From: Panax quinquefolius
Taxonomy: Eukaryota > Streptophyta > Magnoliopsida > Apiales > Araliaceae
NCBI GenBank assembly: GCA_020205615.1
Contig: CM035160.1
Location: 6,550,437-6,614,436 of the forward strand
Direction of reading: 5' to 3'
DNA length: 64,000 nucleotides
Below are positions 4,376 through 39,938 of this stretch, in pieces. Each line of letters starts with the position of its first letter. The first letter of the stretch is position 1. The notes under the pieces were generated by a model that saw only the letters and a program-made list of their open reading frames with translations, made no database searches and had not been told where the DNA came from. Both the position numbers and the translations under genes were made by a program.

Positions 4376-4779
4376 ATACCGCATGCATGGTGATTTCCTT
4401 TGTTATTCCATTCTTTATTATACCCAAATAGTTAAAACTTTGACTTATACTCCATGAAATTAGTAAAATATTCTTGATATTTGCTTTTCATCCAAGATCT
4501 TTTCATGGAAATATTCTTCCGATCATTCTTGAATTTTACTCTCTAAAAGCAAAGATCATGTTGACAATTTGGACGTTATTAGTTCTGAATAAATTAATTA
4601 AATGAACTTGTTTTATTGAATTATTATGTCATTGTCATCATCCTCATGTTATATTATGTTATCTTTGGCTTACGTGCATAGATGAACTTAGTATGATTAT
4701 GACAATGGATCATTCGGTATAATCATGGCTTGTTATAAATGATGTGATAAAAGTCCTCAGTGGCCTGTAATGCAGTGAT

Positions 4780-7583
4780 TGTGACGCCCCCAAAATAGGT
4801 ATACACAACACCCATTCTGAGTCGCCAAATACATGGTACAGAAACAACTACAACTTTATTATTACAACAGTAAAACTGTGAGTTTGAATACAAATATTAT
4901 CTTCTAGACAATATCTATACTCAAATAAATCCTCATCACATTATTGATTCATTATTTTACAAAAATGGTGAGGACTACTAAACAACTCTCTCTAGAATCT
5001 TCATTCCATACCCACTAGCTAGACTTTCATTACATTCTCGCCTCCCGAGAAGAAAAATGGAACAACAAGGAAAAGGGTGAGCTCAACTAGCCCAAGAAAG
5101 AATATTATGACTAAGATAATATACAACAAATTATCGTTAGTCTTCAACGGAAAAAATCGATAGAATACAATGACAACAAGTTTCGGATCAATATTCGCAT
5201 GAAATAATAATTCATAGAAGAGTTACGTAGAGAATGAAATCTACTATAATCTATGAATTTAACAGTCCATCATCAATATTTTATCCTCGTAACATCAATC
5301 AATATACATCCGAATCAAATATTCATCTTTGCACTACTGAGCCAAAGATATTCATCATTAGGTCATGTATTCATTTAAACACTGTTCATCTTTGCACTAC
5401 TGGGCCAAAGATATTAATCAATCGATCATGTTCATCTCAACACTGCTCATCTTTGCACTACAGAGCCAAAGATATTCTTGAGAAATCATTCATCTTTGCA
5501 CTACGGGCCAAAGATATTCAATAATATCATCATTTAAGACCGAGGATGATGAAAATATTTTTAAAGAAACGAATCCAAAGTGAAACAAAATGACAAGGAT
5601 TAAGGATTAAGGATTACGTGACTTGGTTTTATCCACGCCAAAAAATACCTCAAAAACAATCATAGTGGTGTAAAATTCAAGAATGATCAAAACATGGATA
5701 CAATCGAGTTAGTATCCGAATAGATGTTTTAGACGAAAAGAAAAATTTTATTTTTCTATGAATAATCAGATATCGTGAATAGTGTCAGATATCGTGAATA
5801 GTCTTAGATATCGTGAATAGTAACTCAAACACCAAAAGATAGAAATTCCACAAAAACATCTTCACGCTTACATGAATAGTACTTTCGTGAATAGTAACTT
5901 CGTGAATAAGTAACTCGTGAATAAGAACTCGTGAATAAGAACTCGTGAATAGTAACCCCATACATGAAAAAGTTCCAAATTTGATAAAAACTTCAGATCA
6001 ACATTTGAAATAATGATATTGAAGAAATAATATCATTACAAAAAAAAATAATATCCTTACCTCGAAAGATCGATTTTACAGCTAGAATCTAAGATAATAG
6101 TCTTTGAAGGAACTTGCACCGCATCTAGCAATACTCAAAGTATACTCAAAATACTCACAAGAATACGCTCAAAATATCGAGAGAGAAATAGAGAGAAAAC
6201 TTCAGTTTACGGTGTGATTTTCAATTAAACCTAAGCACCCTATTTATAGGAAAATGCTTAGAACACCAAAAGCGAAAATTTAATATAATATTAATATAAT
6301 TATATAAATTTTCCTTAGCCCTACTTTTGGTCAAAACACCAGCCACACATGTTAATGATGTCCAAAAAATACAAAAACGTTTTTCTTAACAAAAATAATT
6401 TAAACTCCCAAAAATCAATTATTTGAAGCTTGAACTTCAATAATTCATAATAAATAGCCCTTTCATCAGAAAATTCAATCTCATGAGTTTTTATAGGAAA
6501 TTCAATTCTCTACAACTTTGCAGAAGAAAGTTTTCCAAATTCCAAACAAAAATCGACCGAAATCCACAAACGGGCGATTTTACAGTATAATCAAATTTCT
6601 ATCGAATAATTGTGTCCACCAACACACAAAACATGTGTTAAACATTTAATGCCACAAAATACTCTTCCTCCTCATATACTCATATATCCCACATTCATTG
6701 TAAAAATATCACCGTTAATATATTATTAAAATAATATATTTAAATGAATTATTTTATCGTAAAAGATAAAATATTAATTTTCAACAATTGTCATTTTAAA
6801 ATTTTCTCCATCTATATCCACATAAAATCAATATTTTCCTCATCATATAAATCAATAATTAATTATTCACAAATAATATTACGAATCACAATATTGACAA
6901 ACTGCATAGCCTCCCAGAAGAGGGGCTTTCCAATAAGAATTTCTTCTTCTTTGGCGCAATTAGATGACCAAACCTCTCCTTGAGCGAACTTTCTAGACAT
7001 TGCCAATAATGTTATCTAATAATATTATTCAGATAATATGAATTATTGCTTCGATAATGAAAGATCTTGTGTAATGACAATTATTGAAACAACAATAATA
7101 TAAAATATAACACAAAGAATTATTAACTCAATAAAATATCGAACAATAATTATCGTAACCATTATTGAGTAGTGCCTTCTTACGTAAGAATCAATAATTG
7201 GTGCAATACTGGTATCTTCTTTGTTGAACGCGCATTATTGGTGTGTTTTAACCACCGGGTATTCCAACGAAGGGCAACAACTACGCCTGTTATTTAAAAA
7301 CAACTTATATTTGTCGTTTTCTTCATCCAATCGCTTTCAGTTATGGGGCCCACACATGGTCTGGTTGCGATCGCATTTAATATTCCCACGAAAGCGATCA
7401 CGAATATTCCACGACCAAACGAATATTCCCCGACAACAATGAATATTTTATAACCACTTGCTTATTTTGAAATATTTGCGTGATTTAACCCTTAACTATC
7501 CACATTAATCAAATCAACCCTTACTATTTCAAAATAATAAATAAAGGAAATTCCTTTTTATTTAAAAAAATTCGGGTCTTACA
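4780..7583 (-). mobile_element. Gypsy LTR A
   Basis: A 2.8-kb LTR read on the minus strand, starting TGTGACGCCCC on the + strand and ending GGGTCTTACA. The left flank is GTGAT (4775-4779) and the right flank is CATAT (7584-7588). These two do not match each other, but they match the flanks of LTR D in crossed fashion. In sequence subtype it pairs with D (both have ACACAACACCCATTCTGA near the start), not with B or C. Confidence 0.85.
5324..5521 (+). repeat. Four tandem units inside LTR A
   Basis: CATCTTTGCACTAC followed by GGCCAAAGATATTC recurs, with starts near 5324, 5387, 5448 and 5490. The same array occurs in LTRs B, C and D. The bases just before GCCAAAG vary between units (TGA, TGG, AGA, GG). 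Confidence 0.75.
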
Positions 7584-10500
7584 CATATAATGCTTGAATG
7601 GAGCCACACCTATACTTGCTGATAAGCTGTTGTTGTAGGAGAATTCCACCAATGGTAAATACTTATCCCAACTACCCTTGAAGTCTAGGACACAGTAGTC
7701 TTAATAGATCTTCAAGAGTTTGAATAGTCCTTTCTCGAATGTCCGTCTGGTTTGGGGATGGTATCTTAACTAAATCGCAAACTGTGCCCATAGCTTTTTG
7801 CAAGCTAACCCAAAATCTTGAAGTGAATCTTGGGTCACGATCCAAAACTATGGATACGGCATGCCATGGAACCTCACAATCTCATTCACGTATTACACTA
7901 GCAAGGACGTTCGAGGAATAAGTCTCCGTGACGGCAAGAAATGAGCGGACTTGGTTAATCTATCAACAATAACCCAAATAGCATTGATGCCTTGAGAAAC
8001 CGTAGGAAGACCCGTAACGAAATCCATAGTAATGTGTTCCCACTTCCATTCCTAATCTCAAGTGGTTGCAACGGACCCTTTAGGTACAAGATGCTCCGCC
8101 TTTACACGTTATTGAAGTTAAACACATCGAGATAAACTTTGCAATCTCTCTCTTCATATTGTTCCACCAAAATGTATGTCGAAGATCACGATACATTTTA
8201 GTACTTCCGAGATGGATTGCAAATGGCGTATTGAGTGCCTCCATCATAATCTTGTACTTCAAATCGTAGTCGTTAGGAACACAAAGTCTAGTGGACTCAA
8301 GTATTCCTTCTTCATCAATTCTCGCTTAGGAATAGCTCCTTCTTGTACTTTCTTCTTCATACGCATCGGTTAAAGAATTCGGTGGCTTGAAAGCAACCTT
8401 AACTTTTCTATTAAAGTTGGCTCTGTCGTATACTTGACATCATCGCTTTCGTTCCGCGATATGATCTTCTACTCAATGCGTCGGCTACCACGTTAAACTT
8501 TTACCGGGATGGTATTGAATAGTGTGGTTGTAGTCTTTCAATAGCTCGAGCCAACGTCGCTACCGCATGTTGAGTTCTTTTTGAGTGAAGAAATATTTAA
8601 GGCTTTTATGGTCCGAATATATCTCCACTTTCTCCCATATATAGATAGTGCCTCCATATTTTTAGCAAGGAAAACGCAATTGCTTACGCTAACTCTAGAT
8701 CATGAGTAGGATAATTCCTCTCATACTCTTTAAGTTGTCATGAGGCATAGGCTATGACTTTCCCACGTTGCATGAGAACACATCCTAACCCTTTGCCCTC
8801 GAAGCATCGTTTGTGAGATAACAAATCCATCCAACCATTGGTATTGTTAGAACAGTCGAAATAAGTCTCCTCTTAAGCTCTTGAAACTTTTCTCGCATTC
8901 TTCGCTCCAAGCGAATTTTGTATCCTTAAGAGTTATTTGAGTTAATGGAGTAGCGATTCGAGAAAACCCTTCCACGAATCTCCGATAATAACCAAATAAG
9001 CCCAAAAAACTACGTACTTGATCCACCAGACTTGGTTGCTCCCAACTTTGTATTGCTTGATCTTCACGGATCAACAGATACTCCATGTTTCGACACCACG
9101 TGCCCAAGGAATGCTACTTCCTCGCCGAACTCGCATTTCTTCAATTTGGCATATAGTTGGTTTTCACGAAGCCTTTGGAGTACCGAAATAAATGGTGCTC
9201 ATGATCTTCACTTTTGGAATATATGAGGATGTCATCAATAAAGACAACAACGAATTGATCCAAATATTCCTTGAATACTCGGTTCATCATATCCATAAAG
9301 CCACAGGAGCATTAGTTAGTCCAAAAGACATGACTAAGAATTCATAATGCCCATACCGAGTTCTGAAAGCGCGCCTTTGGAATATCCTCGATTCTAATCT
9401 TGGTGATGATATCCGAATCGAAGATCGATTTTGAAAAGAATTGTGCCCCTCGCAATCGGTCAAACAAGTCATCAATACGAGGTGAGGGATACCTATTCTT
9501 GATGGTGACATGGTTCAATTCCCGATAGTCAATACAAAAGTCGCATACTCCGTCTTTCTTCTTTACAAATAAAACAGAGCACCCCGAGGAGATGTCTTAG
9601 GGCGAATGAAACCGATGTCCAACAATTCCTGTAGTTGGACCTTTAACTCTGAAGTTCAATAGGAGCCATTCGATATGGGGTTTTAGAAATGGGCTTTGTA
9701 CTAGGTTCAAGATCAATAAAGAATTCACTTCACGCTACGGGGGTAGGCCAGGAAGTTCTTGAAATCGTCGGAAAGTCAATAACAATGAATATTATTCAAA
9801 TTTGACGTGTCTTTATTCAAATCCATAACATGGGCTAAGAAAGCTTGACATCCGTTTTTAATAAGCGAATAGCTTTATGATTAGATATGACGGTGATCGA
9901 TTTTAATGGTTTAGTTGAATTGAATTACAGTCAAGTTGGTTAGGAATATGAAAACTAACAACCTTACGAAAACAATCAATTTTGGCATGATGAGTAGTTA
10001 ACCAATCAATCCCTAAAATCACATCAAAAGCAAGTATCTTTAAAGAGATAAGGTCAATGGTAAGGTAATGGTGTCAACTTGAATCAAACAAGATTTATAA
10101 ACGATGGATGTGATGAAAGTTTCTCCTAACGGAGTTTCCACGAGATAGGTCAAAGTCTAATTTCTCCGAGAGTCAAGTTTAAACGTTGAGCACATGCGGG
10201 AGAGATAAATGAATGGGTAAAGCCGGTATCAAGTAAGGTATAAACTTCGCAAGAATTTATAAATAAACTTACCCGTGATCACCTCGTTTGGGTTCTCGCA
10301 TTATGACCATCAATACAACAAACGCTTCTTCCGGAATCGTTGACTTTGACTTTTACGGGACGATCTTTTGAGTCACCGTCCCCATTGAACTAGGTTTCGC
10401 CATCTTTGTCTAATCTCGAAGCGATATGTCCTTCCTTTCCACAATTATAGCATACCTTGAACTGTTGTGGGCGGTTTGGGTGATATGTCCCTCTTTTCGC

Positions 10501-11684
10501 ATTTGTAGCATATAATGGGTGGTCGTTCTCCTCCCTTAGAACCGATTCTTTGCAAGACCGCCATCTTCACATAGTCGTTATTAAATCTCCTCTTTTAAAA
10601 TCTCCTCCCCGACTTCCGCTTCTTCTATTTTCATGGCCATGATTACCACCGAGTGGTTACCATTTTGTCCGTCTGTTTCTTTCTCCGCAGTTATCATTAT
10701 TCATTGCTGACCGCTATCTCCGATACGATCCTGGTTGTGGTCCTCAACAGTTGGTAGTACTCGTTATCTCGCTTCTAATAATTGAGCCACATTTACAACA
10801 TCCGAATAAAGAGAAAATTTATGAGAAATGAGATCTTGATGTATCTTAGGGTTTCAAACCTCTAAGAAACATCCGCGTCATAATGTTCCTCATTCTCCAC
10901 CGAATGAGGTGCAAACAGATAACTCGCGCAAACTTTGCCTCGTCTTTGAGACACACGCCATGTTGTTTTGTTCCAATCGATGAACTCCACTTCCTTCATA
11001 TAACGAACACTTTTAGGAAAGTATTTGTCATTAAATAAGCTTCAAACGTCTCCCAAGACATCTTTGAGTCATGGTGGATGGAGTACGCTTCACGAGACTC
11101 CCACCAGATGATACGCTCGCCACGGAACATAAAGGTGGCGAATGGAACCTTCTGTTCTCCGTGCACCCCAAGACATCGAATATCTTGGTAATTTGCTTGA
11201 TCCATGTTTCCGCCATGGCGATCGGATCTGGCTTTCCCTTAAATTCGTGGTCCCAACTCTTTGAATCGCTTGGCGTGACAACCCGTGAATTGCTATCATT
11301 TCCTCTCAGATTTTGAACACGAGTCTCCTCGTGCGATTTTGCATAAACCGCAAAAAACTTCTAAACATCCCTCGTTTATCATCGCTCAATGGTGTTGTTC
11401 ACGGGAGGAACATTGTCACTGTTGCACGTTCTCCTCGTTGGTGAGTCTGAGGCATCTCCACGGTCTCATTTCCATTGTTAATATTCTCAATCGACATTAT
11501 CAAATCTTGCCGTAAAACAAGGGTTAATTAAGGAAATCAATATATCACATAATATCCCTATATCTTGACCAACTAACAAATAAGCTTAGGTAGGACACAC
11601 TAGCGAAGGATTTACTCGTCTCTCCTCCTAGTTCTATTCCCCGATCTCCGCCAGGAGATCATATCCCTAAGCTCGATACCAACC
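7584..11684 (-). pseudogene. Ty3/gypsy chromovirus pol-gag remnant (element X)
   Basis: Decayed retrotransposon coding region read right to left. Integrase-side sequence lies near 7584-8260. An RNase H motif DHKSLKYFF is near 8580-8640. The RT to RNase H hinge FLGLFGYYRRFVEGF is near 9000, and the RT active-site motif FIDD is encoded at 9231-9242. Protease/gag sequence follows, with a CCHC-type zinc-knuckle trace near 10430-10560, and gag continues to about 11500. Many frameshifts and stops break it, so no intact ORF remains. The C-terminal integrase part of the same element is displaced to 35714-36374. The stretch starts inside integrase at CATAT. Domain order and the tRNA primer site place it in Ty3/gypsy; the chromovirus (Tekay/Del-like) assignment comes from the sister copy at 19449. 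Confidence 0.8.
11668..11681 (-). other. tRNA primer binding site next to LTR B
   Basis: On the minus strand the sequence just inside LTR B reads TTGGTATCGAGCTTAGG. This is near-identical to the initiator-Met tRNA primer site TGGTATCAGAGC used by many plant LTR retrotransposons. It shows that B is the 5' LTR of the element on its left. Confidence 0.75.
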
Positions 11685-14470
11685 GTGACGCCCCCAAAAT
11701 AGGTATACATCACCTATTCGAGTTGTCAATACATGAGTACGAAAACAACTACAACTTTATTATTACAACAAGAAAAGCGTGAGTTTGAATACAAATATTA
11801 TCTTCTGCATAATATCTATACTCAAATAAATCCTCATCACATTTATTGATACATTATTTTACAAAAATGGTGAGGACTACTAAACAATCCTTTCTAAAAC
11901 CTTCATTCCATACCCCACACTAAGCATCGCTTATATTCTCGCCTCCACGAGAAAAATGGAACAAAAAGGAAAAGGGTGAGCTCAACTAGCTCAAGAAAAG
12001 AATATTATGACTAAGATAATATACAACAAATTATCGTTAGTCTTCAACAGAAAAAAATCTAATAGAATACAATAGACAACAAATTTTAAATCAATATTAG
12101 CAATGAAATAATAATTCATTAGAAGAGTTAAGTAGAGAATGCAAACTACTATCTTCTATGTATGAATTTAAAAGTTCATCGCTCATCTTTTATCCTGTAA
12201 CATCAATCAATATACATCCGGAATCAAATATTCATCTTTGCACTCTACAGCCAAAGATATTCATCGATTAGTCATATTCATTTAAACACTGTTCATCTTT
12301 TCTTCTACGGGCCAAAGATATTCTTCAAAATCATTCATCTTTTGCACTACACGAGCCAAAGATATTCTTAAGAAATCATTCATCTTTGCCACTATGTGCC
12401 AAAGATATTCCATAATATCATCATTTAAGACCGAGGATGATGAAAAATATTTTTTAAAAGCGAATCCAATGAAACAAAATGACAAGGATTAAGGATTAAG
12501 GATTAAGTACTTGGTTTTATCCACGCCCAAAAATACCTCAAAAATAATCATAGTGGTGTAAAATTCAAGAATGATCAAAACATGGATACAATCGAGTTAG
12601 TATCCGAATAGATGTTTTGGACGAAAAAGAAGAAATTTTATTTTTCGGTGAATAAGATCAGATATCGTGAATAGTCTTAGTATCGTGAATAAAGAACTCA
12701 AACACCAAAAGATAGAAATTCCACAAAAACATCTTCACGCTTCATGAATAGTACTCGTGAATAAGAACTCATGAATAAGAATCTCATGAATAGTAACTCG
12801 TGAATAAGAACTCATGAATAAGAACCCATGAATAGTAACCCCACATGAAAAAGTTCCAAATTTGATAAAACTTCAGATCAACATTTCAAAGATAATGATA
12901 TTGAAGAAATAATATCATTACTGAAAAAAATAATATCCCTTACCTCGAAAGATCAAGATTTACAGCTAGAATCTACGGTATAGTCTTTGAAGGGAACTTG
13001 CATGATCTAGCAATACTCAAAGTATACTCAAAATACTCACAAGAATACGCTCGATAATATAGAGAGAAAACTTGATTTACGGTGTGATTTTCAATTCTAA
13101 CCCAAGCACCCTATTTATAGAAAATGCTTAGAATACCAAAGCGAAAAATTTAATAAAATAATAATATTTCTTAAAAATATTCAAGCCCACCTTAGAAATC
13201 TGATTTCAGATCATTTATAACACATGTGAGCCACTCAATTACAACAAAAAACGTTTTTCTTACACAAAAATATTTTAAACTCCCAAAATCAATTATTTGA
13301 AGCTTGAACTTCAATAATTCATAATAAATAGCCCTTTCATCAGAAAATTCGAATCTATGAAGTTTTTATAGAATTTCAATTCTCTACAACTTTGCAGAAG
13401 AAAGTTTTTCCAAATTCCAAATAGAAATTGGCCAAAATCCACAAACGGACAATTTTACAAAATTATAATCAAATTTCAAATCAATAAATGGGGTCCACCG
13501 ACATGTTTAACATGTTTTAAACATTTATTGCAACAAAAATACTCTTCCTCCTCAGATACTCATATATCCCACATTCGTTGTAAAAATATCACCGTTAATA
13601 TATTATTAAAATAATATATTTAAATGAATTATTTTATCAAAAAAGATAAAATATTAATTTTCAACAATTGTCATTTTAAAAATTTTCTCCATCTATATCC
13701 ACATAAAATCAATATTTTCCTCATCATATAAATCAATAATTAATTTTTCACAAATAATATTACGAGAATCACAATATTGATGACCAGTGGGTTCCTGAGG
13801 AAGGGGGCTTTCCAATAAGAATTTTTCTTCTTGGCGCAATTAGGTGACCAAACCTCTCCTTAGATGAACTTTCTAGACATTGCCAATAATGTTATCTAAT
13901 AATATTATTCGGATAATATGAATTATTGCTCGATAATGAAAAATAATGTGTAATGACAATTATTGAAACAACAAGAATATAAAATATCAACGCGTGAATT
14001 ATTAACTCAATAAAATCTTTGAGCGATAATTATCAGTAACCATTATTGAGTAGTGCCTTCTACGTAAGAATCAATAATTGGTGCAATACTGGTAATGCTT
14101 CTTGTTCAACAATGCGTATTAGTGTGTTTTAACCACCGGGTATTCCAACAATGATAATTCAGTAACTACGCTACTGTAGTTATTTAAAAACAACTTATAT
14201 TTGTCGTTTTCTTCATCCAATCGCTTTCCGTTATGGGGCCCACACATGGGCTTTAGCGCCGAGTAAATGCGAATATTCCCCGATAGTACGAATATTCCAC
14301 GACCAAACGAATATTCCCCGACGATAATGAATATTTTATAACCACTTGCTTATTTTGAAATATTTGCGTATTTAACCCTTAACTATCCACATTAATCAAA
14401 TCAACCCTTACTATTTCAAAATAATAAATAAAGGAAATTCCTTTTTATTTAAAAATTTCGGGGTCTTACA
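11685..14470 (-). mobile_element. Gypsy LTR B (5' LTR of element X)
   Basis: Full-length LTR ending GGTCTTACA at 14470, followed by ATATT (14471-14475). The matching ATATT lies just before LTR C (32931-32935). B and C share a subtype, including a CACCTTAGAAATCTGATTTC stretch that A and D lack. They are therefore the two LTRs of one insertion (X) although C is 18 kb to the right. Confidence 0.85.
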
Positions 14471-16817
14471 ATATTCATGGTTGGTCTAAATTAAAACTAG
14501 AGGGCTTAACGGACTCAAGTTTTTCAGACATACCAAGATGACAGAAAAAATCCACTTTAAGGTAAAGCGTTATCGTGAATGAGCGGTGCAGCGTTGAATT
14601 GGAAATGTTCCAAACAAAGAAAGAGTTCTTTGGTTTTAGTGATAAAGACAAAGTATATAGCTATAAATGAAGTCGCAAGTTGATTGTTTGGATTAAAAGT
14701 TCATTACGTAAACTAGGAATAGTTCTAAGTCTCATCTTGGATCTAAACATGTGTTTGTGGCACTTTCATTTAATTATTAGAATCATTGAAAGATGGGAAA
14801 TCACTATAGAGATAGTGGACTCTCATGAACAACATTACATATCCATTAACTAAAGCTTATCCAACAAAGCAGGATAATCGTCACTTAGAGAAGAAAAGAG
14901 TATAAGATACAATGATTTGGCTTTAGTGCAAGTGGGAGATTGAAAGTAGTATGCACACAAAGCCAATCATGTTTGATGATAAAGCATATACTTTGTAACA
15001 ATCTTATTCATTTATTAATAAAAAGTATTAATTTATTAAAGGCTTTTAATTATCTACATGATCTTTGTTTTATAATATGTGATAAACCCATAGTTTTAAG
15101 CAATGCTTTTAGAATAATGATGATGATCATTCTAATGAGATCTAAATTCTTAGAAAGCTTAAAACTAAAATAGTTCCCAATCGTTGGATTACTAAATTGG
15201 GGATTAGTGAATCCGGATAGATTGGTACATACGTTGCTTGCTTTCATTGGATGAGGATGATTGATCTCATGATCATTTGTGTGGAGACACTAAAGCAAGT
15301 ATGTAGGTGCTTATTAGAGAATAAGTTCATTTGAGCGTGGCTCGCTAAGGAATACCTAATGGAGTTTTATTTGCTGTCATCAATAGAAATTCTCAGTAGT
15401 GATAGTAGTCAAGTAATCCTTGGACTTGAGATCATCATAGTATCTTGTGTATGATGAGTTATACTTTGACTTATTCCTTAAGACCCTTAGGGTATATCAA
15501 AGGGTATATGCTTGGGTATAATAAGTTGTACATGGAGATAATGTATGATCAATAAAGAATCTACCACTTCAATAAAGAAGAGAAAATGTCCTATGTGATT
15601 CGATAAATGACAACCCGGTAGTCCTCGGTGGCAAAGCGAATGAAATTAGAAAGGAGTTTCTAATTTGCATTATTTGAGTTGTGCATTTAAGGATCGAAAT
15701 ACATATAATTAAATAAAATAAGACTTGACAAGAATTCCATGTCTTATATTTAATTGGGACATTGTATGGTGGAAGGATTGAATTGTCATTTTAACTATTT
15801 ACTCAAAGGTTCTTTAATGATTAATGTTGAAATCAATATTATCCGGAAAGTCGTTGATCATTGGGAGGCTTATCCTTATTGTAGAATAAATATTATTTAT
15901 TTAAATAAATTAATTGTTTAATTTATTTATTTAAATAAGATTAGAATTGTTTTAATTGATTTATTCACAACCTATTTTAATATGGAGAACCTAAAGGGTC
16001 ACACCATAAAAGGAAGAATATTTATTTAAGAAGTTAATGGCATAATCGTAATAATATGTTAAGTATATTTAATTTAATCTATGGTGATATAATAAATTAA
16101 ATAGCTTAATATTTATTATTTAATATTTTAGAAATATTAAATATAAATTAATAAGAGGAGTCTTATTAATATTATTACAATTATTATTATTTTAATTTCT
16201 AAAGAGTTTAGGAATTAATTTAATATAAAATACTCTCATTTATTCCTAATAGGATTAGGAGGAAAAATTAGTTAAAGGAGTTTAATTAATTATCCCTAAT
16301 AAGATTAGGGAGCTTAATTAATTAAAAGAATTTAATTAATTAAATAAAACCCAATTCCTTAATTGTTAAGGTGGGTTGCCCACATCTATAAATAAGAGGA
16401 GTCTTATTATGGGTGAAGGGTTGTTGACTTTTACAACATCGTAATTCCAATAGTTGGGAGAAGACGCCCCTTTTTTCTATCTGAGATAGAAAAAACTAGG
16501 GTTTGAGCGATACCCCATCTTCTTGAATCTTTTTCTTTCTTGGTGGATCACCTCTGAGGCCAAACACTTGGGTGGCTAACGTTGATCAAAGGAAGGAACC
16601 AAACCCGTGGATTCAAGTTGAGCGAAAAGGATTTGGAGGTGAACTTGTGAGGAAGCTTCGATCTTCAAGGGTAAGATTTTATTCTTTATCTTTTCGTTTA
16701 ATTAATAATTGTGCATAAAGGGTGATCCGGGTTTATGGTTTGTAAATTTTTAAACTCGATTTTACACGTTTAGCACTTTTATGCAATTTGATTGCGTTCA
16801 TGAATATTACAAACCTA
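14471..16817 (+). mobile_element. Copia element, 3' part with 3' LTR
   Basis: Ty1/copia RNase H remnants are readable near 14582-14680 (SGAALNWKCSKQ and later KYIAINEVA), and the pol 3' end runs to about 14930. A polypurine tract GTGGGAGAT (14932-14940) is followed by an LTR starting TGAAAG at 14941 that continues to about 16817. The reverse transcriptase region is missing. The upstream half of the element lies at 31396-32935, and the two halves meet at the ATATT target site of element X. The exact 3' end is uncertain, set where gypsy leader sequence starts. Confidence 0.7.
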
Positions 16818-16894
16818 ACGGTATTCCCGTCTCTCTCCTCCTAATCTTATTCTCACATCTTAGCCGGGGATCATACCTAAGCTCGATACCAAAC
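16818..16894 (-). other. Gypsy 5' leader and primer site of element Z
   Basis: This short stretch matches the leader next to LTRs B and G (TATTCCCGTCTCTC, then CTAAGCTCGATACC). The Met-tRNA primer site reads TTGGTATCGAGC on the minus strand at about 16880-16892. It marks LTR E as the 5' LTR for sequence to its left, yet only about 77 bases remain before copia sequence begins. Confidence 0.7.
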
Positions 16895-24698: not shown

Positions 24699-24785
24699 TC
24701 TCCCTCCTTATGGAATTTAAGCCCTCGAAATTAGAGTATGCGATACACAGTATGATAAAGAGATGAGGATACCTTGAATACCTTT
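24699..24785 (-). pseudogene. Integrase tail remnant of element FG
   Basis: Matches the start of the internal regions at 19449 and 35714 (CTCCCTCCTTATG, then TTTAAGCCCTCGAAATTAG) and breaks off near 24785. The rest of pol is gone from this element. Confidence 0.65.
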
Positions 24786-26890: not shown

Positions 26891-28164
26891 AAGAAATATT
26901 TGAGGTTTTAAGAAATGGGTTTTGTCTTTGGGGTCAATACAAAATTCGATTTCACGCTCTAGGGGCGAGCTAGGAAGTCTTCAAGAATACGCCAAGAAAT
27001 TTATTAATGATAGAAATATCATTCAAAGCATTACTTTCGTCCCAAGACTTGGATAAGACATCGATTAATACCAATTGTGACTTTTCATCCCTTAACTGGA
27101 TAAGACCTCACAATGATACCTATCAACTTGCCATCTTGATCACGACGTCGCCTCTGAAAGTCCGCTTGGTGCATTCCACAGGAAAGTCAACAACGAAAGG
27201 ATCGGGCTCTTTACTTATGGCTTGATATAACGGTGATTAACTTTAGGATTTGGTTACTTTGAATTAAGTATAACAGGTTGGTTAGGAATATGAAAGCTAA
27301 CAACCTTACAAAAAGAATAATGAGTAGTTAATCAATCGTTTTCAAAATTACCTCAAAGGCAAGTATTTTCAAAGAGATAAGATCGACGAAATTAACGTGA
27401 AAGTGTTTATTTGAAACAACAAGATTAAGCAGTTGGAGTAACGAAGGTTTCTCCCAACGAAGTTTCAATAGATAAATCAAAGTCTAATTTCTCCTGAGTC
27501 AAATTTAAGCGTTGAGCATAAGCAAGAGAGATAAAAGAATGGGTAGAACCCAGATTCTAATAAGGTATAGACTTAGCAAGAATTTATAATTAACTAACCC
27601 GTGAGTATAACTTCGTTCGGGTTACCCACTTTTGAAAGTCACGAAAACGCTCTTCACGAAACCACCGACTTTGTTTTGTCCGTATCCGCCTTTGGTGCCA
27701 CTTATCCCAAATGGACTTGACTTCACTATATGACAAAATCGAGCTAAATGACCTTCTCTTCTTGAAATTTCCACTTATTATCTTTGCCATGATTACCAAT
27801 CAAGTGGTTACCATTCTTAGCATGATAATTTCCCCGATGGTTATCATTGTTACGATGGCCGTTGCCACCATATGATTATTATGTCGTGTTGTTGGTCGTT
27901 ACCTTTTGTTTGAAATTTGAATCAACACTCTCATGTGCTTCATTGCTTATCTCAAAGATTTTCAGATGCCATTCTCAAACATCTTTGTCACAAAACAAGG
28001 GTTAATTGACATGTAACAAATTATCCCTATATTACATGACCGACCAATAAAATAGCACATAAACTTAGGTAGGTCATTCTAGCGAAGGTATTCCCGTCTC
28101 TCCCCTCCTAGTACTATTCTCACCTCTTGGCCGAGGATCATATCCCTAAGCTTTGATACTGTTG
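26891..28164 (-). pseudogene. gag/protease remnant and primer site of element FG
   Basis: Homologous to the gag side of X and Z, beginning in the RT-protease region (CACGCTCTAGGGG near 26950) and running to the leader. A primer site on the minus strand (CAGTATCAAAGCTTAGG, about 28145-28162) directly abuts LTR G. Heavily broken by indels, no ORF. Confidence 0.7.
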
Positions 28165-30521
28165 TGTGGCGCCCCAAAATTAGGTATCGTCACCCATCTT
28201 GGGTCGCCACTTACATGGTACATAAATTCAAATACAACTTACTAATATAAGCTGTGCAGTACAATACAACAAAAAGCGTGAGTTTGAATACAAATATTGT
28301 CTACTAGATATTATACAAACTCAAAAGGAGTCCTCATTACAACTATTATCACACTATTTCACGAGAATAGTGAGGACTACTAATGCTATCCTTTGGACCA
28401 TTACTTACCGTTCCAGACTCATCCCAAATTATGTTCTCATTTCACGAAGAAACGGTGAAAGAAAGGTGAGCTCAACTAGCCCAAGATGAAATATTATGAC
28501 TAAGATAATGCGAATAAATTATCATTAGCCTTCAACAATGTTAAACCGATAAAATATAATAGACAACCAGTTTAAGCTGCGGTGGAATAAACAATCCATT
28601 AAAAGAGTCAAGTAGAGAATAAAGTCTACTATCTTTTAGGTTTTAAAAGGTTTTCATCAATTTTTATCATTTGAGACTAAACAATAATAAACCACCACAT
28701 CTAATCATCCCCGTACCACTACGGTCAAGGATTTTCATCAAATTATCAATGGTCATGACTATACTTAAATCACCACCGGTCATAATCATACCAAAACTAT
28801 CCATCAACGCATTACGAGCCACTTTGAGGACTTTTGTCACATCATTTATATCAAGTCATGATTATCTTAGAATGATCCTCGGTCATAATCATACTAAGTT
28901 CATCTATGCTTGCGTAAGCCAAAGATAACATAATATAACATGAGGATGATGACAATGACATAGTAATTCAATAAAACAAGTTTAAGAATTATTTAATCCA
29001 TGACTTATTAACGTCCAAATTGTCAACATGATCTTTGTTTAGTAGAGTAAAATTCAATAATGATCGGAAGAATATTTCCATGAAAAGATCTTTGGATGAA
29101 ACGCAAATATCGAGGATATTCTACTAATTTCATGGAGTATAAAGTCAAAGTTTTAACCAAGTGGGTATAATAAAGAATGGAATAACAAAAGAAATCACCG
29201 TAAATGCGGTGCTTGCGATGTAAGCGAGTTATTCAACGAGAATAATAATAACGGAACCGGTCGGGTGAAATTCACACCTACGGGATGTTCCAATGAGAAT
29301 AATAAAGATGGAACCGGATCCGGTGTAAAACACACGAGATAGGATATTCCAACGAGAATGATAAAGAAGGCGGAACCGGTCCCATTAAAACACACACATG
29401 TGATGTTCCAACGAATAATAGAAGAATGTCACCAAGTATAGGGTAAACCCGTATATCGAGTTATTCAACAGAATAATAAGCAATGGAATAACATAAGGAT
29501 TTCACCAAGTATAGGGTATCTGGCGTGATCAAAGTTATGTATAGGGTATGCCACTTTTACAAAGTTATTCAACGTAATGATAATGAATGGAATAACGAAG
29601 TTCTCTTCAAGAAAGAATAACACCCTTACCGTAGTAAAAAGAACCTGAATATAGAAGTAGTGAAGTAGCGAATATCTTCTTCTTTTTCTATAATTTTCTC
29701 TCTATAAACCTCTCTATAATTTCTCTCTCTAGAGTTTCAATGAATTAAGTAAGAAAATAATGAAGGATTGAGCTTATTTTATCTGAAAATGGAATGCGTA
29801 AGTAACTAATCCATGAATCGGTCCAGATTGATTTACTTTAATCGATGGTCCATATTTAAAGAAAAATCTTTTAAATAAAATATAATATATTTTATTTATA
29901 TAAAAACATTTTACTATGCAACACACTATTATGCAATACTATCTGCAAAACACTATGCAACACTATGCATAATAAAATATAATATATTCTATTTATAGAA
30001 TAACTTTAATAAAGTATTCTATTTTATATAAAAGATGTTTACATTTTTATTACGTTAATAATACTGAATAAAACAAAAGCGTCATTATCGCTATAATAAT
30101 TCATATTATTAATAAATGATAATGGAATCAAACCGAGTGACTTCTCACATAAACATCAATAATCAATCTGGTATTATTCTTATGCAACCACCACGTATTC
30201 TTCGTACTTTTACTACCGAAGTAGTTCAACAATAACCACTACAGTAAAACTTCATAGATTATTTTAATAAAATATTTTTGTCGTTTTCTCGATCCGACAA
30301 TAATTACATTATTGGGGTCCACCAATGATTGAGTAGTTGTACGAATATTCCCTGCTAAACCGAATATTCCCCAGGCAATCGAATATAATATAACCACTTG
30401 CATACTTTGCAAAATTTATAAATACTACCCACAACTATAATATTATCTCAAATTCACACCATAATATTAAAAATTATTTCGACAAAATTTAAATCTTTAT
30501 TAATAAAATCAGGGTCTCACC
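28165..30521 (-). mobile_element. Gypsy LTR G (5' LTR of element FG)
   Basis: Close copy of LTR F, starting TGTGGCGCCCC and ending GGGTCTCAC. Its left side carries the primer site and its right side resumes pol of element Z at the point where F broke it (GGGGGTAGGC). F and G therefore delimit one nested insertion of about 8.2 kb. Confidence 0.8.
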
Positions 30522-31395
30522 TTTGGGGGTAGGCGGGGAAGTTCTTGAGGGAATCGTCGGAAATTTATTAACAATAGAAATATCGTTCAAAACCGGCGTA
30601 TTTTTGTTTAAATCTGTGATACGAGCTAAGAAAGCTTGACATCCGTTTTTCAATAAGCGAATAGCTTTATGGCTTGAGATGGCCGTGATTGATTTTAATG
30701 GTTTGGTCGTTTGAATTAAGCATAATAGGTTGATTAGGAATATGAAAGCTAACAACCTTACGAAAACAATCAATTTTTGCATGATAAGTAGTTAACCAAT
30801 CAATCCACAGAATCGCGTCAAATCTGAACTATTTTAATGAAATAAGATCGACCGAGTAATGTGAGAGTGCAGGAATTTGAACCAAACAAGACTTATAAGC
30901 GATGGATGTAATGAAGGTTTCTCCCAACGGAGTTTCCACGAGATAAGTCAAAGTCTAATTTCTCCTGGTCAAATTTAATCAATGAGTGCAAGTAGGAGAA
31001 ATAAAAGAATGGGTAAACCGGTATCAAATAAAGTATAGACTTCATTAGAGTTTATGATAAACTTACCCGTGATGACCTCATTCATTCCTTTGCTCTTTGG
31101 GAGGTCACAACAAACGCTTTCTCCACTTGCACTTCTGGGTTTTGAATTTTACGGGATGGCCTTTGGTGCCTCCATCCTAGTTGAATTTGTCTTGATGGCA
31201 ACAAAATCGAGCTAAGTGACTTTTCTTCCATAATTATAACATGCTTTTGACTGGCATGGCGCATTTGATGATGTGTCCTCTCCTCCGCATTTGAAGCATA
31301 TGATAGGTGGTCTTTCTCCTTCCTTAACAATGGGTCTTTGGTCTTGGCGTCTTTCCATCATTGTTGAATCTCCGTTTCTTGCAACATTAGCCATG
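30522..31395 (-). pseudogene. protease/gag remnant of element Z
   Basis: Continues the Z coding region interrupted at 22350. A zinc-knuckle relic is seen on the minus strand near 31230-31330 (CFKCGGE and ACYNYGRK fragments, second Cys changed to Tyr). Homology to X ends near 31395, where copia sequence begins, so about 1 kb of gag is missing between here and the leader at 16818. Confidence 0.7.
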
Positions 31396-32935
31396 AAACT
31401 TATAGTTTAACATCGCTTACTGAGCCAAATCTATTAAGTCGATAAGTTGTTATTGTATTATAGTTCTCGTTGAAAACATTATTTCCATTTTATTGTTGGA
31501 CAATGAAATCTTTGGTATTATATTTAAGAACAATTGTTGTTCTATTTATAATAATAATGTTTTGTATAGAATGAAATATTACTTAATAGATTTTGTATAC
31601 TTGACTTACGTGAAAAAAAATATTTTGTAAATTGAACAAACTAGTATAAGAAAAGGAGATGATCATTCAAAGAGTTGAATGTATGTATTTGTTGAAATCT
31701 GAAGTGTGAATTATTTGAAAGGTTCAAAGAATTGAAAGTGAAACAAATTGGCAATGTATTAAGATTTTTGATTAGATCGAGGAATAAATACTTGTGCAAT
31801 AAGTTTCGGATCATCTCAAATGGTTTTCTCATAATGGACACATCCTCGTCTGTGATAATTGATTGATGTATCCGAAAGGAAAAATCATACCTTGTTGGAC
31901 ATGGTACGGTCCATAATGATTTTACCGACATTCCATATCCTTCAGGATCATGTCCTAGAAATGGTGCATATATCTATGAAAAGGTAACCTCAAAATCGAG
32001 GCCCCCAAGACTCCATAAAAGTTATGGACGGGGAGGATTCCTAATCTTAAGTATGTTAAGATAAGGGGTTGTCGAACTTATGTGAAAAGGTTTCAAAGGA
32101 TAAGCTTGGGACAAGATTTTATAAGTGTCGATTTGTGGGACATCCTAAAGTAAGTTTAGGGTATATGTTCTATAATCCTACTTAGCAAAAGGTGTTTGTT
32201 GCAAAACACACACGCCTTACTAAGATAAAGGTGTTTATCATTGAAAGAGCTAGTGGGAGGATAATAGATCTTGAAGAGTTCAAGAACCACAAAACACTAT
32301 AAATCAAATAAGAGGAACCTATAGATATACTATTGTACCACAAATAGAATCGTAAATGCTGAATAATCTCAAGATACCTAGGAGGTATGGATTCATCATG
32401 GATGATGATGATGAGGTATGCATCATAGAAGATGATGATCCGAGTTACATACGATGAGGTAAGAGTTCTAGTGTGTATGAAAAAGGGTCGAGATGGGGCG
32501 TCGTGACATTCTTAATATTATATGTTGATATACTACGGATAAGGAATGACATACTAATGCTACAATCGATGTAATGATAAAGTTGTCTAAACATTCCTCC
32601 ATGAATGATTTGGAAGAGTATCTTAGTTGGGGATATAAATCTATATAGATAGATTTAAGAGGATGCTCGACTTAACCCAAAGAACGTATATTCATTTGAT
32701 GCTAAAGTCGTTTAGCATGGCAAACTCAAGAGATGTCTCATCTTGATGAGCCGTGGAGTGTATCTCTCTTAATAGTCCCCACAGACTCACGAAAGAGAGG
32801 TCGCATGAGTAACAATCATGTATGCAATGAAATGTCAGACCTGATGTTGATCGGTCATATTCGGAGAAGTTCACTATGAGTCGGTGAAAAACATCTTAAA
32901 GTGCTTAACCCAAGCACTAAGGATGTGATCATATT
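31396..32935 (+). mobile_element. Copia element, upstream part
   Basis: Integrase C-terminal sequence of Ty1/copia type is readable on the + strand near 32020-32175 (ELWTGRIPNLKYV, then after a frameshift KLGTRFYKCRFVGHPK and YMFYNPT). Upstream of about 31960 it is A+T-rich and unassigned. The 5' LTR is not seen. It ends with ATATT at 32931-32935, the duplicated target of element X. Confidence 0.65.
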
Positions 32936-35713
32936 TGTGGCGCCCCAAAATAGGTATACATCACTGATTACGAGTTGTCGATACATGGTACGAAACAACT
33001 ACAACTTTATTATTACAACAATAAACTGTGAGTTTGAATACAAATATTATCTTACAGATAATATCTATACTCAAATAAATCCTCATCACATTTATTGATA
33101 CATTATTTTACAAAAATGGTGAGGACTACTAAACAATCCTTTCTAAAACCTTCATTCCATACCCCAGACTAAGTACTCGCTTATATTCTAGCCTCCACGA
33201 GAAAAATGGAACAAAAAGGAAAAGGGTGAGCTCAACTAGCTCGATAAAGAATATTATGACTAAGATAATATACAACAAATTATCGTTAGTCTTGAACGAG
33301 GAAAAATCTAATAGAATCTGATAGATGACAAATTTTAAATCAATATTCGCAGAAAATAATAATTCATTAGAAGAGTTAAGTAGAGAATGCAAACTACTAT
33401 CTTCTATGTATGAATTTAAAAGTTCATCGTCTATCTTTTATCCCCTCAACATCAATCAATATACATCTGGAATCAAATATTCATCTTTGACTACTGGGCC
33501 AAAGATATTCATCGATTAAGTCATATTCATTTAAACACTTGTTCATCTTTTTGCACTACGGGCCAAAGATATTATTCAGAAATCATTCATCTTTGCACTA
33601 CGGCCAAAGATATTCTTAAGAAATCATTCATCTTTTTTACTGGGCCAAAGATATTCCATAATATCATCATTTAAGACCGAGGATGATGAAAAATATTTTT
33701 TAAAGAAACGAATCCAAAGGAAACAAAATGACAAGGATTAAGGATTAAGGATTCGTACTTGGTTTTATCCACGTCCAAAATACCTCAAAAATAATCATAG
33801 TGGTGTAAAATTCAAGAATGATCAAAACATGGATCTGATCGAGTTAGTATCCGAATAGATGTTTTGAGACGAAAAGAAGAAATTTTATTTTTCGATTGAA
33901 TAAGATGCAGATATCGGAATATAGTGCCGTATCGTGAATAGTAACTCAGACACCAAAAGATAGAAATTCCACAAAAACATCTTCACGCTTCATGAATAGT
34001 ACTGTGAATAGTAACTTCGTGAATAAGTAACTCATGAATAAGTAACTTCGTGAATAAGTAACTCATGAATAGTAACCCATGAATAGTAACCCAGACATGA
34101 AAAAGTTCCAAATTTGATAAAAACTTCAGATCAACATTTCAAAGATAATGATATTGAAGAAATAATATCATTCTGAAAAAAAAATAATATCTCTTACCTC
34201 GAAGATCGAGACTTACTAGCTAGAATCTAGGGTATAGTCTTTGAAGGAACTTGCCGATCTAGCAATACTCAAAGTATACTCAAAATACTCATAAGAATAC
34301 GCTTCGATAATATAGAGAGAAAAACTTGATTTACGGTGTGATTTTCAATTCTAACCTAAGCACCTATTTATAGGAAAATCTTTAGAATACCAAAGCGAAA
34401 ATTTAATAAAATAATAATATTTCTTAAAAATATTCAAGCCCACCTTAGAAATCTGATTTCAGATCATTTATAACACATGTGAGCCACTCAATTACAACAA
34501 AAAACGTTTTTCTTACAAAAAATATTTTAAACTCCCAAAAATCAATTATTTCGGAACTTCGGAACTTCAATAATTCATAATAAATAGCCCTTTCATCAGA
34601 AAATTGAATCTCGCAAGTTTTTATAGAATTTCAATTCTCTACAACTTTGCAGAAGAAGTTTTTCCAAATTCCAAATAGAAATTGACCAAAATCCACAAAC
34701 GGACAATTTTACAGGTATAATCAAATTTCAGGTCAATAAATGGGGTCCACCGACATGTTTAACATGTTTTAAACATTTATTGCAACAAAAATACTCTTCC
34801 TCCTCGTATACTCATATATCCCACATTCGTTGTAAAAATATCACCGTTAATATATTATTAAAATAATATATTTAAATGAATTATTTTATCAAAAAAAGAT
34901 AAAATATTAATTTTCAACAATTGTCATTTTAAAATTTTCTCCATCTATATCCACATAAAATAAATATTTTCCTCATCATATAAATCAATAATTAATTTTT
35001 CACAAATAATATTACGAAATCACAATATTGACAACCAGGCGGTTCAGGAAGAGGGGCTTTCCAATAAGAATTTTTCTTCTTGGCGCATGATTAGGTGACC
35101 AAACCTCTCCTTAAGATGAACTTTCTAGACATTACCAATAATGTTATCTAATAATATTATTCAGATAATATGAATTATTGCTTCGATAATGAAAATAATG
35201 TGTAATGACAATTATTGAAACAACAACAATATAAAATATCAACGCAAAGAATTATTAACTCGATAAAATCTTTGAGCGATAATTCTCATAACCATTATTG
35301 AGTAGTGCCTTCTTCGTAAGAATCAATAATTGGTGCAATCTGGTGCTACTCTTGTTCAACGCCGTATTAGTGTGTTTTTTAACCACCGGGTATTCCAACA
35401 AGATTAACGGTAATAACTACGCCAGTTATTTAAAAACAACTTATATTTGTCATTTTCTTCATCCAATCGCTTTCCAGTTATGGGGCCCACACATGGTCTT
35501 GGCACCGTCGTCATTTAATATTCCCAACAATCTGAATATTCCACGTCCAAACGAATATTCCCGAAGCGATAATGAATATTTTATAACCACTTGCTTATTT
35601 TGAAATATTTGCGTATTTAACCCTTAACTATCCACATTAATCAAATCAACCCTTACTATTTCAAAATAATAAATAAAGGAAATTCCTTTTCCTTAAAAAT
35701 TTCGGGTCTTACA
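32936..35713 (-). mobile_element. Gypsy LTR C (3' LTR of element X)
   Basis: Starts TGTGGCGCCCC after ATATT and ends GGTCTTACA at 35713, followed by integrase-tail sequence. Same subtype as LTR B. Contains the CATCTTTGCACTAC unit array at 33480-33660. Confidence 0.85.
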
Positions 35714-36374
35714 ACCTCCCTCCTTATGAAATTTAAATCCTCGAAATTGACGTCGTACGTACTGTGTTTTTGAAAAGGTGAGGATACCTCGCTTTCATTT
35801 CCGTTTCCAATTCCCGTGTCATTTCCTTTATAGCAGCATGATTCCTCCACAAAATTTTAACTTGTGGTATGACCTTTCTTGCTGAAGGACATGCTCCTTC
35901 CTATCCAAGATCTTGACAGTACCTCCCTCATACGTTAAGTCTTCTACTATCTCGTCCTGGATTCTAACTTTCGATAACGTGGTTCGGGTCTTTCACATAT
36001 TCTGAAGTACAAATATGTGAAACACATTATGAACACGAGACATACTTTGAGGTAACGCAAGTCTATAGGCTACATTTCCTACTCGGTCAAGAATTTGAAA
36101 TGGACCAATAAATCGTGGATTGAGCTTTCCTCTCTTCCCAAATCTTGTAATTCCTTCCACGAAGCGACTTCGCATGATATCATGATCCCTACACTAAATT
36201 TCACGTCCTTTCGATGAAGATCCGCGATAACTCTTTTTAGTAGATCTTGTCTTGTTTGTATCGTTGTCGAATCATTTGGATCTTTTCGGTGATCATACGT
36301 CTTATTTTGGGTCCCAACAATGTTGCTTCACCCACCTCATCCCAACATATTGAGAACGACATTTTCGTCCATAT
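35714..36374 (-). pseudogene. Integrase C-terminal remnant of element X
   Basis: Matches 19449-20100 of element Z, including the minus-strand segment with MSRVHNVFHIFVL. It stops at CATAT (36370-36374), exactly where the X remnant at 7584 starts with CATAT. The two parts are halves of one integrase gene separated by a solo-LTR insertion, now lying at opposite ends of the block. Confidence 0.8.
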
Positions 36375-39149
36375 TGTGGACGCCCCAAAATAGGTATACA
36401 CAACACCCATTCTGAATCGCCAAATACATGAGTACGAAACAACTACAACTTTATTATTACAACAAGAAAAGCGTGAGTTTGTATACAAATATTATCTTCT
36501 AGACAATATCTATACTCAAATAAATCCTCATCACATTATTGATACATCATTTTGCAAAAATGGTGAGGACTACTAAACAATCCTTTCTAAAACCTTCATT
36601 CCATACCCAGACTAAGTACTATTGCTACATTCTCGTCTCCCGAGAAGAAAAATGGAACAACAAGGAAAAGGGTGAGCTCAACTAGCCCGAGAAAAGAATA
36701 TTATGACTAAGATAATATACAACAAATTATCGTTAGTCTTGACGAGGAAAAATCGATAGAATCTGATAAACAAAGTTTCGGATCAATATTCGCGGTGAAA
36801 TAATAATTCATAGAAGAGTTACGTAGAGAATAAAATCTACTATAATCTATGAATTTAACGATCCATCATCAATATTTTATCCCCTCAAACATCAATCGAT
36901 ATACATCCGAATCAAATATTCATCTTTGACCACTACTGGCCAAAGATATTCATCGATTAATCATGTTCATTTAAACACTGTTCATCTTTGCACTACAAGC
37001 CAAAGATATTCTTCAGAAATCATTCATCTTTGCACTACTGAGCCAAAGATATTCTTCAAATCATTTCATCTTTGCACTACATGGGCCAAAGATATTCAAT
37101 AATATCATCATTTAAGGTAGAGGATGATGAAAATATTTTAAAGAAACGAATCCAAAGGAAACAAAATGACAAGGATTAAGGATTAAGGATTAGTACTTGA
37201 TTCTATCCACGCCCAAAATACCTCAAAAATAATCATAGTGGTGTAAAATTCAAGAATGATCAAAACATGGATACAATCGAGTTAGTATCCGAATAGATAT
37301 TTTGACAAAAAAGAAAAATTTTATTTTTCTATTGAATAGTCAGAGTATCGTGAATAGTCTTAGTATACGTGAATAGTAACTCAAACCAAAAGATAGAAAT
37401 TCCACAAAAACATCTTCACGCTTCATGAATAGTACTTTCGTGAATAGTAACTTTCGTGAATAAGAACTCATCTGAATAAGTAACTCGTGAATAGTAACTC
37501 ATGAATAATAATCAGATGAATAAATAACCCCCAGACATGAAAAAAGTTCCAAATTTGATAAAAACTTCAGATCAACATTTCAAAGATAATGATATTGAAG
37601 AAATAATATCATTACAAAAAAAATATCCACTTACCTCGAAAGATCGAAGATTACTACAATTTAGAATCTACCGGTATAAGTCTTTGAAGGAACTTGCCAC
37701 CGTCTAGCAATACTCAAAGTATACTCAAAATACTCACAAGAATACGCTCAAAATATCGAGAGAAATAGAGAAAACTTGAGTTTACGGTGTGATTTTCAAT
37801 TCTAACCCAAGCACCCTATTTATAGGAAAATGCTTAGAACACCAAAAGCGAAAAAATTTAATATAATATTAATATAATTATACAAATTTTCCTTAGCCCA
37901 CCTTTTGGTCAAAACACCAGCCACACATGTTAATGATGTCCAAAAAATACAAAAAAACGTTTTTCTTAACAAAAATAATTTAAACTCCCAAAATCAATTA
38001 TTTGAACTTGAACTTCAATAATTCATAATAAATAGCCCTTTCATCAGAAAATTCGAATCTCTTGAGTTTTTATAGGAATTCAATTCTCTACAACTTTGCA
38101 GAAGAAAGTTTTTCCAAATTCCAAACAAAAATCGACCGAAATCCACAAACATGCGATTTTACGGTTATAATCAAATTTCTTCGATAATTGTGTCCACCAA
38201 CACACAAAACATGTGTTAAACATTTAATGCCACAAAAATACTCTTCCTCCTCATATACTCATATATCCCACATTCATTGTAAAAATATCACCAGTTAATA
38301 TATTATTAAAATAATATATTTAAATGAATTATTTTATCGAGAAAAGATAAAATATTAATTTTAACAATTGTCATTTTAAAATTTTCTCCATCTATATCCA
38401 CATAAAATCAATATTTTCATCATCATATAAATCAATAATTAATTATTCACAAATAATATTACGAGAATCACAATATCGACAACCAGGCGGTTCCTGGAAG
38501 AGGGGCTTTCCAATAAGAATTTCTTCTTCTTGGCGCTGCAATTAGATGACCAAACCTCTCCTTGAACAGTAACTTTCTAGACATTGCCAATAATGTTATC
38601 TAATAATATTATTCGGATAATATGAATTATTGCTTCGATAATGAAAGATCTTGTGTAATGACAATTATTGAAACAACAAACAATATAAAATATCAACGCA
38701 AACAATTATTAACTCGATAAAATCTTTGAGCGAATAATTCAGTAACCATTATTGAGTAGTGCCTTCTACGTAAGAATCAATAATTGGTGCGTCTGGTATC
38801 TTCTTCGTTCAACAACGCGTATTAGTGTGTTTTAACCACCGGGTATTCCAACAAAGGCAACAACTACGCCAGTTATTTAAAAATAACTTATATTTGTCGT
38901 TTTCTTCATCCAATCGCTTTTCAGTTATGGGGCCCACACATATGGTCATAGTCGTCGTCTTAATATTCCCCGACGATCACGAATATTCCACGACCAAACG
39001 AATATTCCCGACAACAATGAATATTTTATAACCACTTGCTTATTTTGAAATATTTACGTATTTAACCCTTAACTATCCACATTAATCAAATCAACCTTCT
39101 TATTTCAAAATAAAGGAAATTCCTTTTATTTAAAAATTTAGGTCTTACA
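36375..39149 (-). mobile_element. Gypsy LTR D
   Basis: Starts TGTGGACGCCCC after CATAT and ends GGTCTTACA at 39149, followed by ATGAT (39150-39154) and the rest of the outer solo LTR. Same subtype as LTR A. No primer site adjoins its left side, so it is not the 5' LTR of an intact element. Confidence 0.85.
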
Positions 39150-39807
39150 ATGATGGATAGTTTTTGGTATGATTATGACTGTGGGTGATTCGGTATAGTC
39201 ATGACCATTGATAATTTGATGAAAATCCTCGACCAGTGAGTGCAGGGGATGATTAGATATTGTGGTTTATTCATTAAACCGAGTCTTAGTGATAAAAATT
39301 TATGAAAACCTTTTAAAACCAAAAGATAGTAGACTTTTATTTTCTACTTGACTCTTTTAATGGATTAAGATATTCATTGTAGTTAAACCGTTTGTCTATT
39401 GTATTTTATCGGTTTAACATTGTTGAAGACTATTGATAATTTATTACGCATTATCTTAGTTATAATATTTCTTCTTTGGACTAGTTGAAATTTCACCTTT
39501 TCTTTCACACCGTACTCTTGAAATGAGAAATATAAATTTGACGAGTCGGGAAAAAGAGTGATGGTCCCAAGATAAGCATTAGTAGTCCTCACTATTACAT
39601 TAAATAGTGTGACAATAAATGTAATGAGGACTCCTTGAGTATGGATATTGTCTAAATGACAATATTCCTATTAGAACTCTCGATTTATGTATTGTCGTAT
39701 GTTACTGCCTACGGATGTATAATTAAGTTTGTATTTGAATTTATGTATCATGTATGAAGTGGCGGCATTCAAGATGGATGGCGTATCACCAATTTTGGGG
39801 CGTCACA
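39150..39807 (+). mobile_element. Solo gypsy LTR (outer), right part
   Basis: Continues the LTR broken at 4779. Comparison with the inverse of LTRs F and G near 22900-23040 shows that the two parts join at one ATGAT. Ends GGCGTCACA at 39807, followed by the TAAAG duplication. Confidence 0.85.
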
Positions 39808-39812
39808 TAAAG

Positions 39813-39842: not shown

Positions 39843-39872
39843 TAACTAACTCATTTAAAACTAATTAACCTA

Positions 39873-39938
39873 ATTCTAGTCACTTCATTTAAAAGCCACT
39901 AACCTAACTCTAGCCATTAATTTAATATAGCACTAATA

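Follow-up and report, generated by a model that had tools for sequence, protein, structure and literature searches.

A probable recent, circularly permuted copy of a neighbouring retrotransposon nest inside a solo LTR of Panax quinquefolius

A 28.8-kb block at positions 7584-36374 of the DNA analysed here is probably a recent second copy of a retrotransposon nest lying upstream, which would have been put into a solo family-1 LTR 11 kb to the right of that nest by homologous recombination between LTRs. The analysed stretch, called the window throughout, comprises 64,000 nucleotides of Panax quinquefolius (C10:6550437-6614436), and the genome searched amounts to 3.57 Gb in 821 contigs; negative coordinates denote positions upstream of the window, counted in window coordinates. 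The flanks of the LTRs involved are crossed, both target sites occur empty, a source nest is located upstream, the two LTRs of the outer element Z appear as a single fused one, and the two copies are close to each other. We infer that the event occurred in the living plant rather than during assembly, whereas for its physical route a circle and a linear exchange or templated repair appear about equally plausible.

Self-comparison of the window revealed four LTRs of ~2.8 kb (A, B, C, and D; Table 1) which belong to one family (family-1) and share the same orientation. LTR A is flanked by GTGAT on the left and CATAT on the right, LTR D by CATAT on the left and ATGAT on the right, and ATATT is found to the left of LTR C and to the right of LTR B; these flanks agree with those given in an initial annotation of the window. 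The outer host is a Z/W-type solo LTR in inverted orientation, labelled O, and the same label is used for the family-1 LTR at its ATGAT site. O is framed by its own target site duplication (TSD), TAAAG, on both outer sides, and therefore the two outer pieces belong together. For the sequence hosting C and B, a copia-type assignment is supported weakly by SH3_retrovirus (E 7.4e-5), a match below the curated cut-off. Beside the TAAAG site, inverted-repeat DNA of foldback or MITE-like appearance is present at 39847-40759 and 1956-2680, with at least 56 genome matches from 40 scored candidates, and the left of these flanks (1956-2680) also matches the flank of the upstream nest, inverted, at 89%.

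Table 1. Features of the permuted nest and of its host LTR, in window coordinates
Feature	Position	Strand	Remarks
Left part of host solo LTR O (Z/W-type)	2673..4779	- (relative to other LTRs)	TSD TAAAG 2673-2677; LTR piece 2678-4779; ends in TSD GTGAT 4775-4779
LTR A	4780..7583	+	Alleles common to D, A', and D' are lacking in the left part, interpreted as the LTR of O itself; CATAT in X pol adjoins the right end
X pol/gag part	7584..11684	-	Starts with TSD CATAT 7584-7588; matches upstream -18097..-13996
LTR B of element X	11685..14475	+	~11685-14470 by self-comparison; TSD ATATT 14471-14475
Copia-type host piece, right part	14476..16819	+	Matches upstream -11225..-8868
End of Z internal region (5' UTR side)	16820..16893	-	Adjoins Z LTR, as at upstream Z-right LTR
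Single fused Z LTR (ends approximate)	16894..19447	+	Left flank like upstream Z-right, right flank like upstream Z-left; ring closure point
Z internal	19448..22346	-	RNase H domain PF17917 at 20944-21273; holds uninterrupted sister of CATAT site
Element W, nested in Z	22347..30525	-	LTRs at about 22347-24698 and 28159-30525, each a sister of the O site
Z internal, continued	30526..31406	-	Zinc-knuckle-like Cys motif 31212-31406 recognised visually in the translation, without a Pfam match
Copia-type piece, left part (left end approximate)	31410..32935	+	Ends in TSD ATATT 32931-32935
LTR C of element X	32936..35713	+	Self-comparison
X tail, putative integrase side (name from the initial annotation)	35714..36374	-	Ends in TSD CATAT 36370-36374
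LTR D	36375..39149	+	E alleles common to upstream A' and D' are present in the left part; ATGAT adjoins the right end
Right part of solo LTR O	39150..39812	-	Starts with TSD ATGAT 39150-39154; LTR piece 39150-39807; closing TSD TAAAG 39808-39812

The pairing of these flanks was examined by joining short flanks and running BLAST against a 264-kb C10 stretch and 28 loci (L001-L008, L029-L048), a match being counted as spanning when it reached no less than 30 bases past the join in both directions; because the C10 stretch belongs to the search set, sister sequences within the window and the copies upstream of it are among the spanning matches. It had been proposed from the letters of the window that the flanks of A and D should be re-paired, and the joins bear this out. 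The left flank of D joined to the right flank of A (CATAT) is uninterrupted in 15 of 25 BLAST matches, one of which, at 19983-20220, crosses the join where the initial annotation had claimed an uninterrupted sister (20095-20115), and the left flank of A joined to the right flank of D (ATGAT) is uninterrupted in 9 of 29, whereas the pairings as found in the window were spanned in 0 of 44 matches for A's own flanks and 0 of 34 for D's own flanks across the C10 stretch and the 28 loci. For the copia-type host of C and B (ATATT), 1 of 6 matches runs through the join. Each TSD half fits the half beside the other LTR, with one mismatch between GTGAT and ATGAT, and the re-paired flanks occur as empty sites; such crossing of target duplications is far beyond chance. 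We rejected A-D as an intact LTR retrotransposon, given that the inner sides of its LTRs fall within X pol and that the re-paired CATAT site is uninterrupted in more than half of its matches. It is likewise highly improbable that integrase inserted a giant LTR-ended molecule, reaching from A to D, at ATGAT: such an insertion would explain why the left side of A and the right side of D form a 5-bp duplication, but not why A and D are both bordered on the inside by CATAT, within a pol region whose join is uninterrupted in other copies.

BLAST of the window against the 264 kb around it identified a nest in ordinary order at -47098..-6232 (C10:6503338-6544204), which ends 9-11 kb before the insertion site. 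From left to right it consists of the Z-left LTR, Z internal with W, the left copia-type piece, C', the X tail, D', E internal, A', X pol/gag, B', the right copia-type piece, and the Z-right LTR. Upstream, Z is the outermost element, with two LTRs and the TSD TCTTG on both sides, and an element E, with CATAT on its outer sides, has D' and A' as its two LTRs. The internal part of E (-24849..-20890, ~4 kb) is without ~1 kb that is present in X. Two arms are colinear between the copies, window 16899-39150 with -47098..-24850 and window 4783-19444 with -20889..-6232, and the window has its CATAT|D and A|CATAT junctions in common with upstream E, from which the exchanged LTR would come and whose internal region is absent from the window nest. 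The single Z LTR of the window has Z internal sequence on both flanks, on the left as at upstream Z-right and on the right as at upstream Z-left; since the two upstream LTRs of Z are one in the window, the ring is closed at the Z LTR. The window copy is circularly permuted relative to its linear source, with an identifiable closure junction. Simple tandem duplication by unequal crossing-over was rejected, for the copy sits 9-11 kb off in the solo LTR O and has different outer flanks.

According to the origin we favour, the source nest would have been copied locally, with the solo family-1 LTR in host O as the target. A first switch would lead from the O LTR into E's right LTR, a second from the right Z LTR to the left Z LTR, and a third out of E's left LTR and back to O, with the result that the order becomes circularly permuted, the two LTRs of Z merge into one, and the internal region of E is left out. 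The ring-type topology suggested by the initial annotation, an LTR exchange with the LTR at ATGAT, is upheld by the empty sites, by the fusion of the Z LTRs, and by the ordinary order of the nest upstream; the circle itself is one possible route, and linear routes are equally economical.

Among the linear routes, unequal exchange between the LTRs of O and E would give duplication and deletion products, followed by an exchange of right Z with left Z, or alternatively one templated repair would make three LTR jumps. Either would yield the observed order with the donor staying in place, over a short distance of 9-11 kb, and with the right LTR of E on one side and its left LTR on the other, E internal would never have been included, without an extra step. 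No intermediate haplotype is seen in this assembly, however, and three jumps in a single repair event would be unusual. A linear route is best regarded as a serious possibility short of being probable. A circular route is also possible, though with some doubt: recombination between the Z LTRs on one chromatid would free a circle carrying one Z LTR and all nested DNA, and a single crossover would bring it into the O LTR on the sister, with E becoming solo before or after. In its favour, the permutation closes exactly at Z's own LTR, and the movement of circles to a genomic solo LTR has been proposed, as speculation, for yeast Ty elements (PMC4751563), but the loss of E internal would then require a further event. 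The donor nest is intact and in ordinary order, and the circle would therefore have to stem from the sister or the homologue.

The origin by copying a neighbour agrees with the divergence between the two nests once the error-like part of that divergence is set aside. Raw differences range over 3.4-11.2% in 21 pairs, with transition:transversion ratios of 0.95-2.1 and 15-25 gap events per kb, and the eight LTRs (A-D, A'-D') differ by 5.5-12.8% unmasked, values that would point to an old event. In unmasked LTR distances A'-D' reaches 5.3% and B'-C' 6.4%, whereas the window LTRs differ from their upstream counterparts by 10.2% (A-A' and D-D'), 8.8% (B-B'), and 9.0% (C-C'); distances within the upstream pairs are smaller than those to the corresponding window LTRs, which, taken literally, argues against a recent copy; we attribute this mismatch to errors or to gene conversion. 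The differences are clustered in patches rich in small gaps, and such patches also occur between the unrelated loci L003-L008 (L002 being the upstream copy itself). In six window-upstream blocks, among 850 columns with a gap or transversion, 448 are near CG as against 3434 of 14064 identical columns, and 318 are near CHG as against 1676 of 14064. The unmasked differences (3-11%) look like consensus errors at methylated CG/CHG sites, and their cause might be methylation-linked nanopore base calling; base errors at bacterial Dcm methylation motifs have been described (PMC6591954). These differences, clustered at CG/CHG and resembling consensus error, date nothing and do not behave as age, and LTR dating was rejected.

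Divergence was accordingly compared after masking the neighbourhoods of CG and CHG and restricting the count to isolated columns, leaving out the row of E internal against X (4/190). Window and upstream nests then differ at 15 of 6193 isolated columns (pol 7/1152, copR 3/1488, Z internal 3/1036, W internal 1/1394, copL 1/931, tail 0/192), against 1.4-3.2% in nine other pol pairs and 18/917 for the W internal region of another copy, where only the contrast between pairs counts since the isolation filter lowers all values. Omission of that filter, with unmasked non-motif columns used and gaps counted, gives 2.0-4.4% for window against upstream and 6.1-7.9% for the nine other pol pairs, a contrast in the same direction and smaller. 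Most simply, these comparisons suggest that the window nest is a recent copy of its upstream neighbour.

The same data bear on the assembly, in which an erroneous path through the O LTR, one arm, the Z LTR, the other arm, an LTR, and O again would have used one nest twice. We consider this unlikely, though not to be dismissed, because base quality in the repeats looks poor and the masked nests are nearly identical: the repeats hold many clustered, apparently erroneous differences that are CG/CHG-linked between window and upstream, the copies are almost the same after masking, and each switch falls at a repeat. Against it, three wrong switches plus a second copy of both arms would be required, and the sequence between -100 kb and +139.7 kb is free of N bases. 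Long reads are moreover long in comparison with LTRs of 2.8 kb. The misassembly suspected from the outset would need all three switches, more than the misjoining at one and the same LTR that had been envisaged.

The composition of LTRs A and D was compared under two allele criteria. The strict one takes columns at which A' and D' share an allele while B, C, B', and C' all carry the other, dropping columns 257 and 1273, where neither A nor D matches E; D then has E alleles at 8 columns in the range 115-1918 (two of them adjacent), and A has them at columns 62 and 2267, of which 2267 is where a switch would place it. With a looser criterion based on 31 other copies, for which 80 sites were collapsed to 38 and 5 mixed clusters dropped, D and A match E at 23 and 9 in the left part and at 2 and 4 in the right part. 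The change point between A and D is not significant, being reached by 4497 of 20000 permutations, and the mosaic of the Z LTR is mixed. The left part of A does not resemble the LTR of E and looks like an independent one, as expected if O was present beforehand; it is read as O's own LTR. That it lacks the alleles shared by D, A', and D' at the 8 columns is a further point against insertion of a single giant molecule.

Copies of the junctions were also sought across the genome. A probe over O|A matched well across the join in the window alone, among the best 40 of 771 candidates, apart from one 74% match on C4, and for the O flank no other match among the best 40 of 361 candidates reaches the LTR; the O flank is a repeat, and hence the O site was not found elsewhere. 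A downstream junction at 117944 appeared by BLAST to be the same as O|A and was rejected, as it is rather an independent LTR ~25 bp away in a W-type LTR. The C10 region at 112-151 kb in window coordinates is dense in broken family-1 and W-type LTR pieces, many of them inverted, with a 100-N gap at 139708. The A|CATAT junction recurs on C18 at 89% (best 40 of 1157 candidates), where another X-type element (C18:28174023) has an LTR ending at the identical CATAT position in pol in different surroundings; this copy (L043) adjoins a mixed-type LTR with 24 E-type and 33 X-type alleles, on a site list that counted A and A' among the other copies. The probe 36300-36380 includes six bases of D only and says little on the CATAT|D junction.

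Both copia|LTR junctions were found on C8 (C8:120581202-120586433; best 40 of 1846 and best 40 of 707 candidates), apparently around a solo LTR to judge from their 2.8-kb distance, and the left one also at C20:37974367, C18:11702280, and C22:44283166 among the scored matches, with one uninterrupted copia-type site coming from the join test. The X site is common to more loci than this nest, as if the copia-type piece (window 14473-16819, 31410-32935) had spread with a family-1 LTR already inside or the ATATT site had been hit repeatedly. Elsewhere in the window, at 47057-48475, 132-nt inverted repeats (92% identical) 1155 nt apart flank pieces matching Rubisco accumulation factor 1, whose Raf1 HTH and C-terminal domains score above the cut-off and whose N-terminal domain scores below; a DNA transposon appears to have captured part of a gene here.

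In the serial translocation at cattle KIT, a reshuffled segment has been ascribed to circles (Durkin et al., 2012, as reviewed in PMC3927395), and the resemblance lies in a copied segment whose order differs from its source and from which circles are inferred; according to the review, however, the cattle segment measures 492 kb, moved between chromosomes, and was joined in the first step by microhomology, whereas here 29 kb lies on the same chromosome as its source, with the switch points inside LTRs. Extrachromosomal circular DNA (eccDNA) of yeast Ty elements likewise involves one-LTR circles made by LTR recombination, and docking at solo LTRs is speculated upon there (PMC4751563), but in the present case the outer element carries nested elements and the event is known from its chromosomal end product alone. 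The solo LTRs and complex LTR elements treated for plants in PMC5379124, whose main text has 0 occurrences of the word "circular," differ from the permuted segmental copy with crossed TSDs presented here.

For this C10 stretch, the results suggest that the ages of LTR pairs are unreadable until the CG/CHG-linked differences are dealt with. The return of eccDNA to solo LTRs has so far been a speculation, as put in PMC4751563, and the idea of a circle entering a solo LTR becomes testable here, because a single stretch of chromosome contains the source together with the closure point, the target, and the two empty sites. A tentative and rather doubtful extension would be that a circle of nested elements, formed from the LTRs of one retrotransposon, re-entered the plant chromosome at the solo LTR of another family, in which case LTRs may serve as docking sites for movement at the DNA level.
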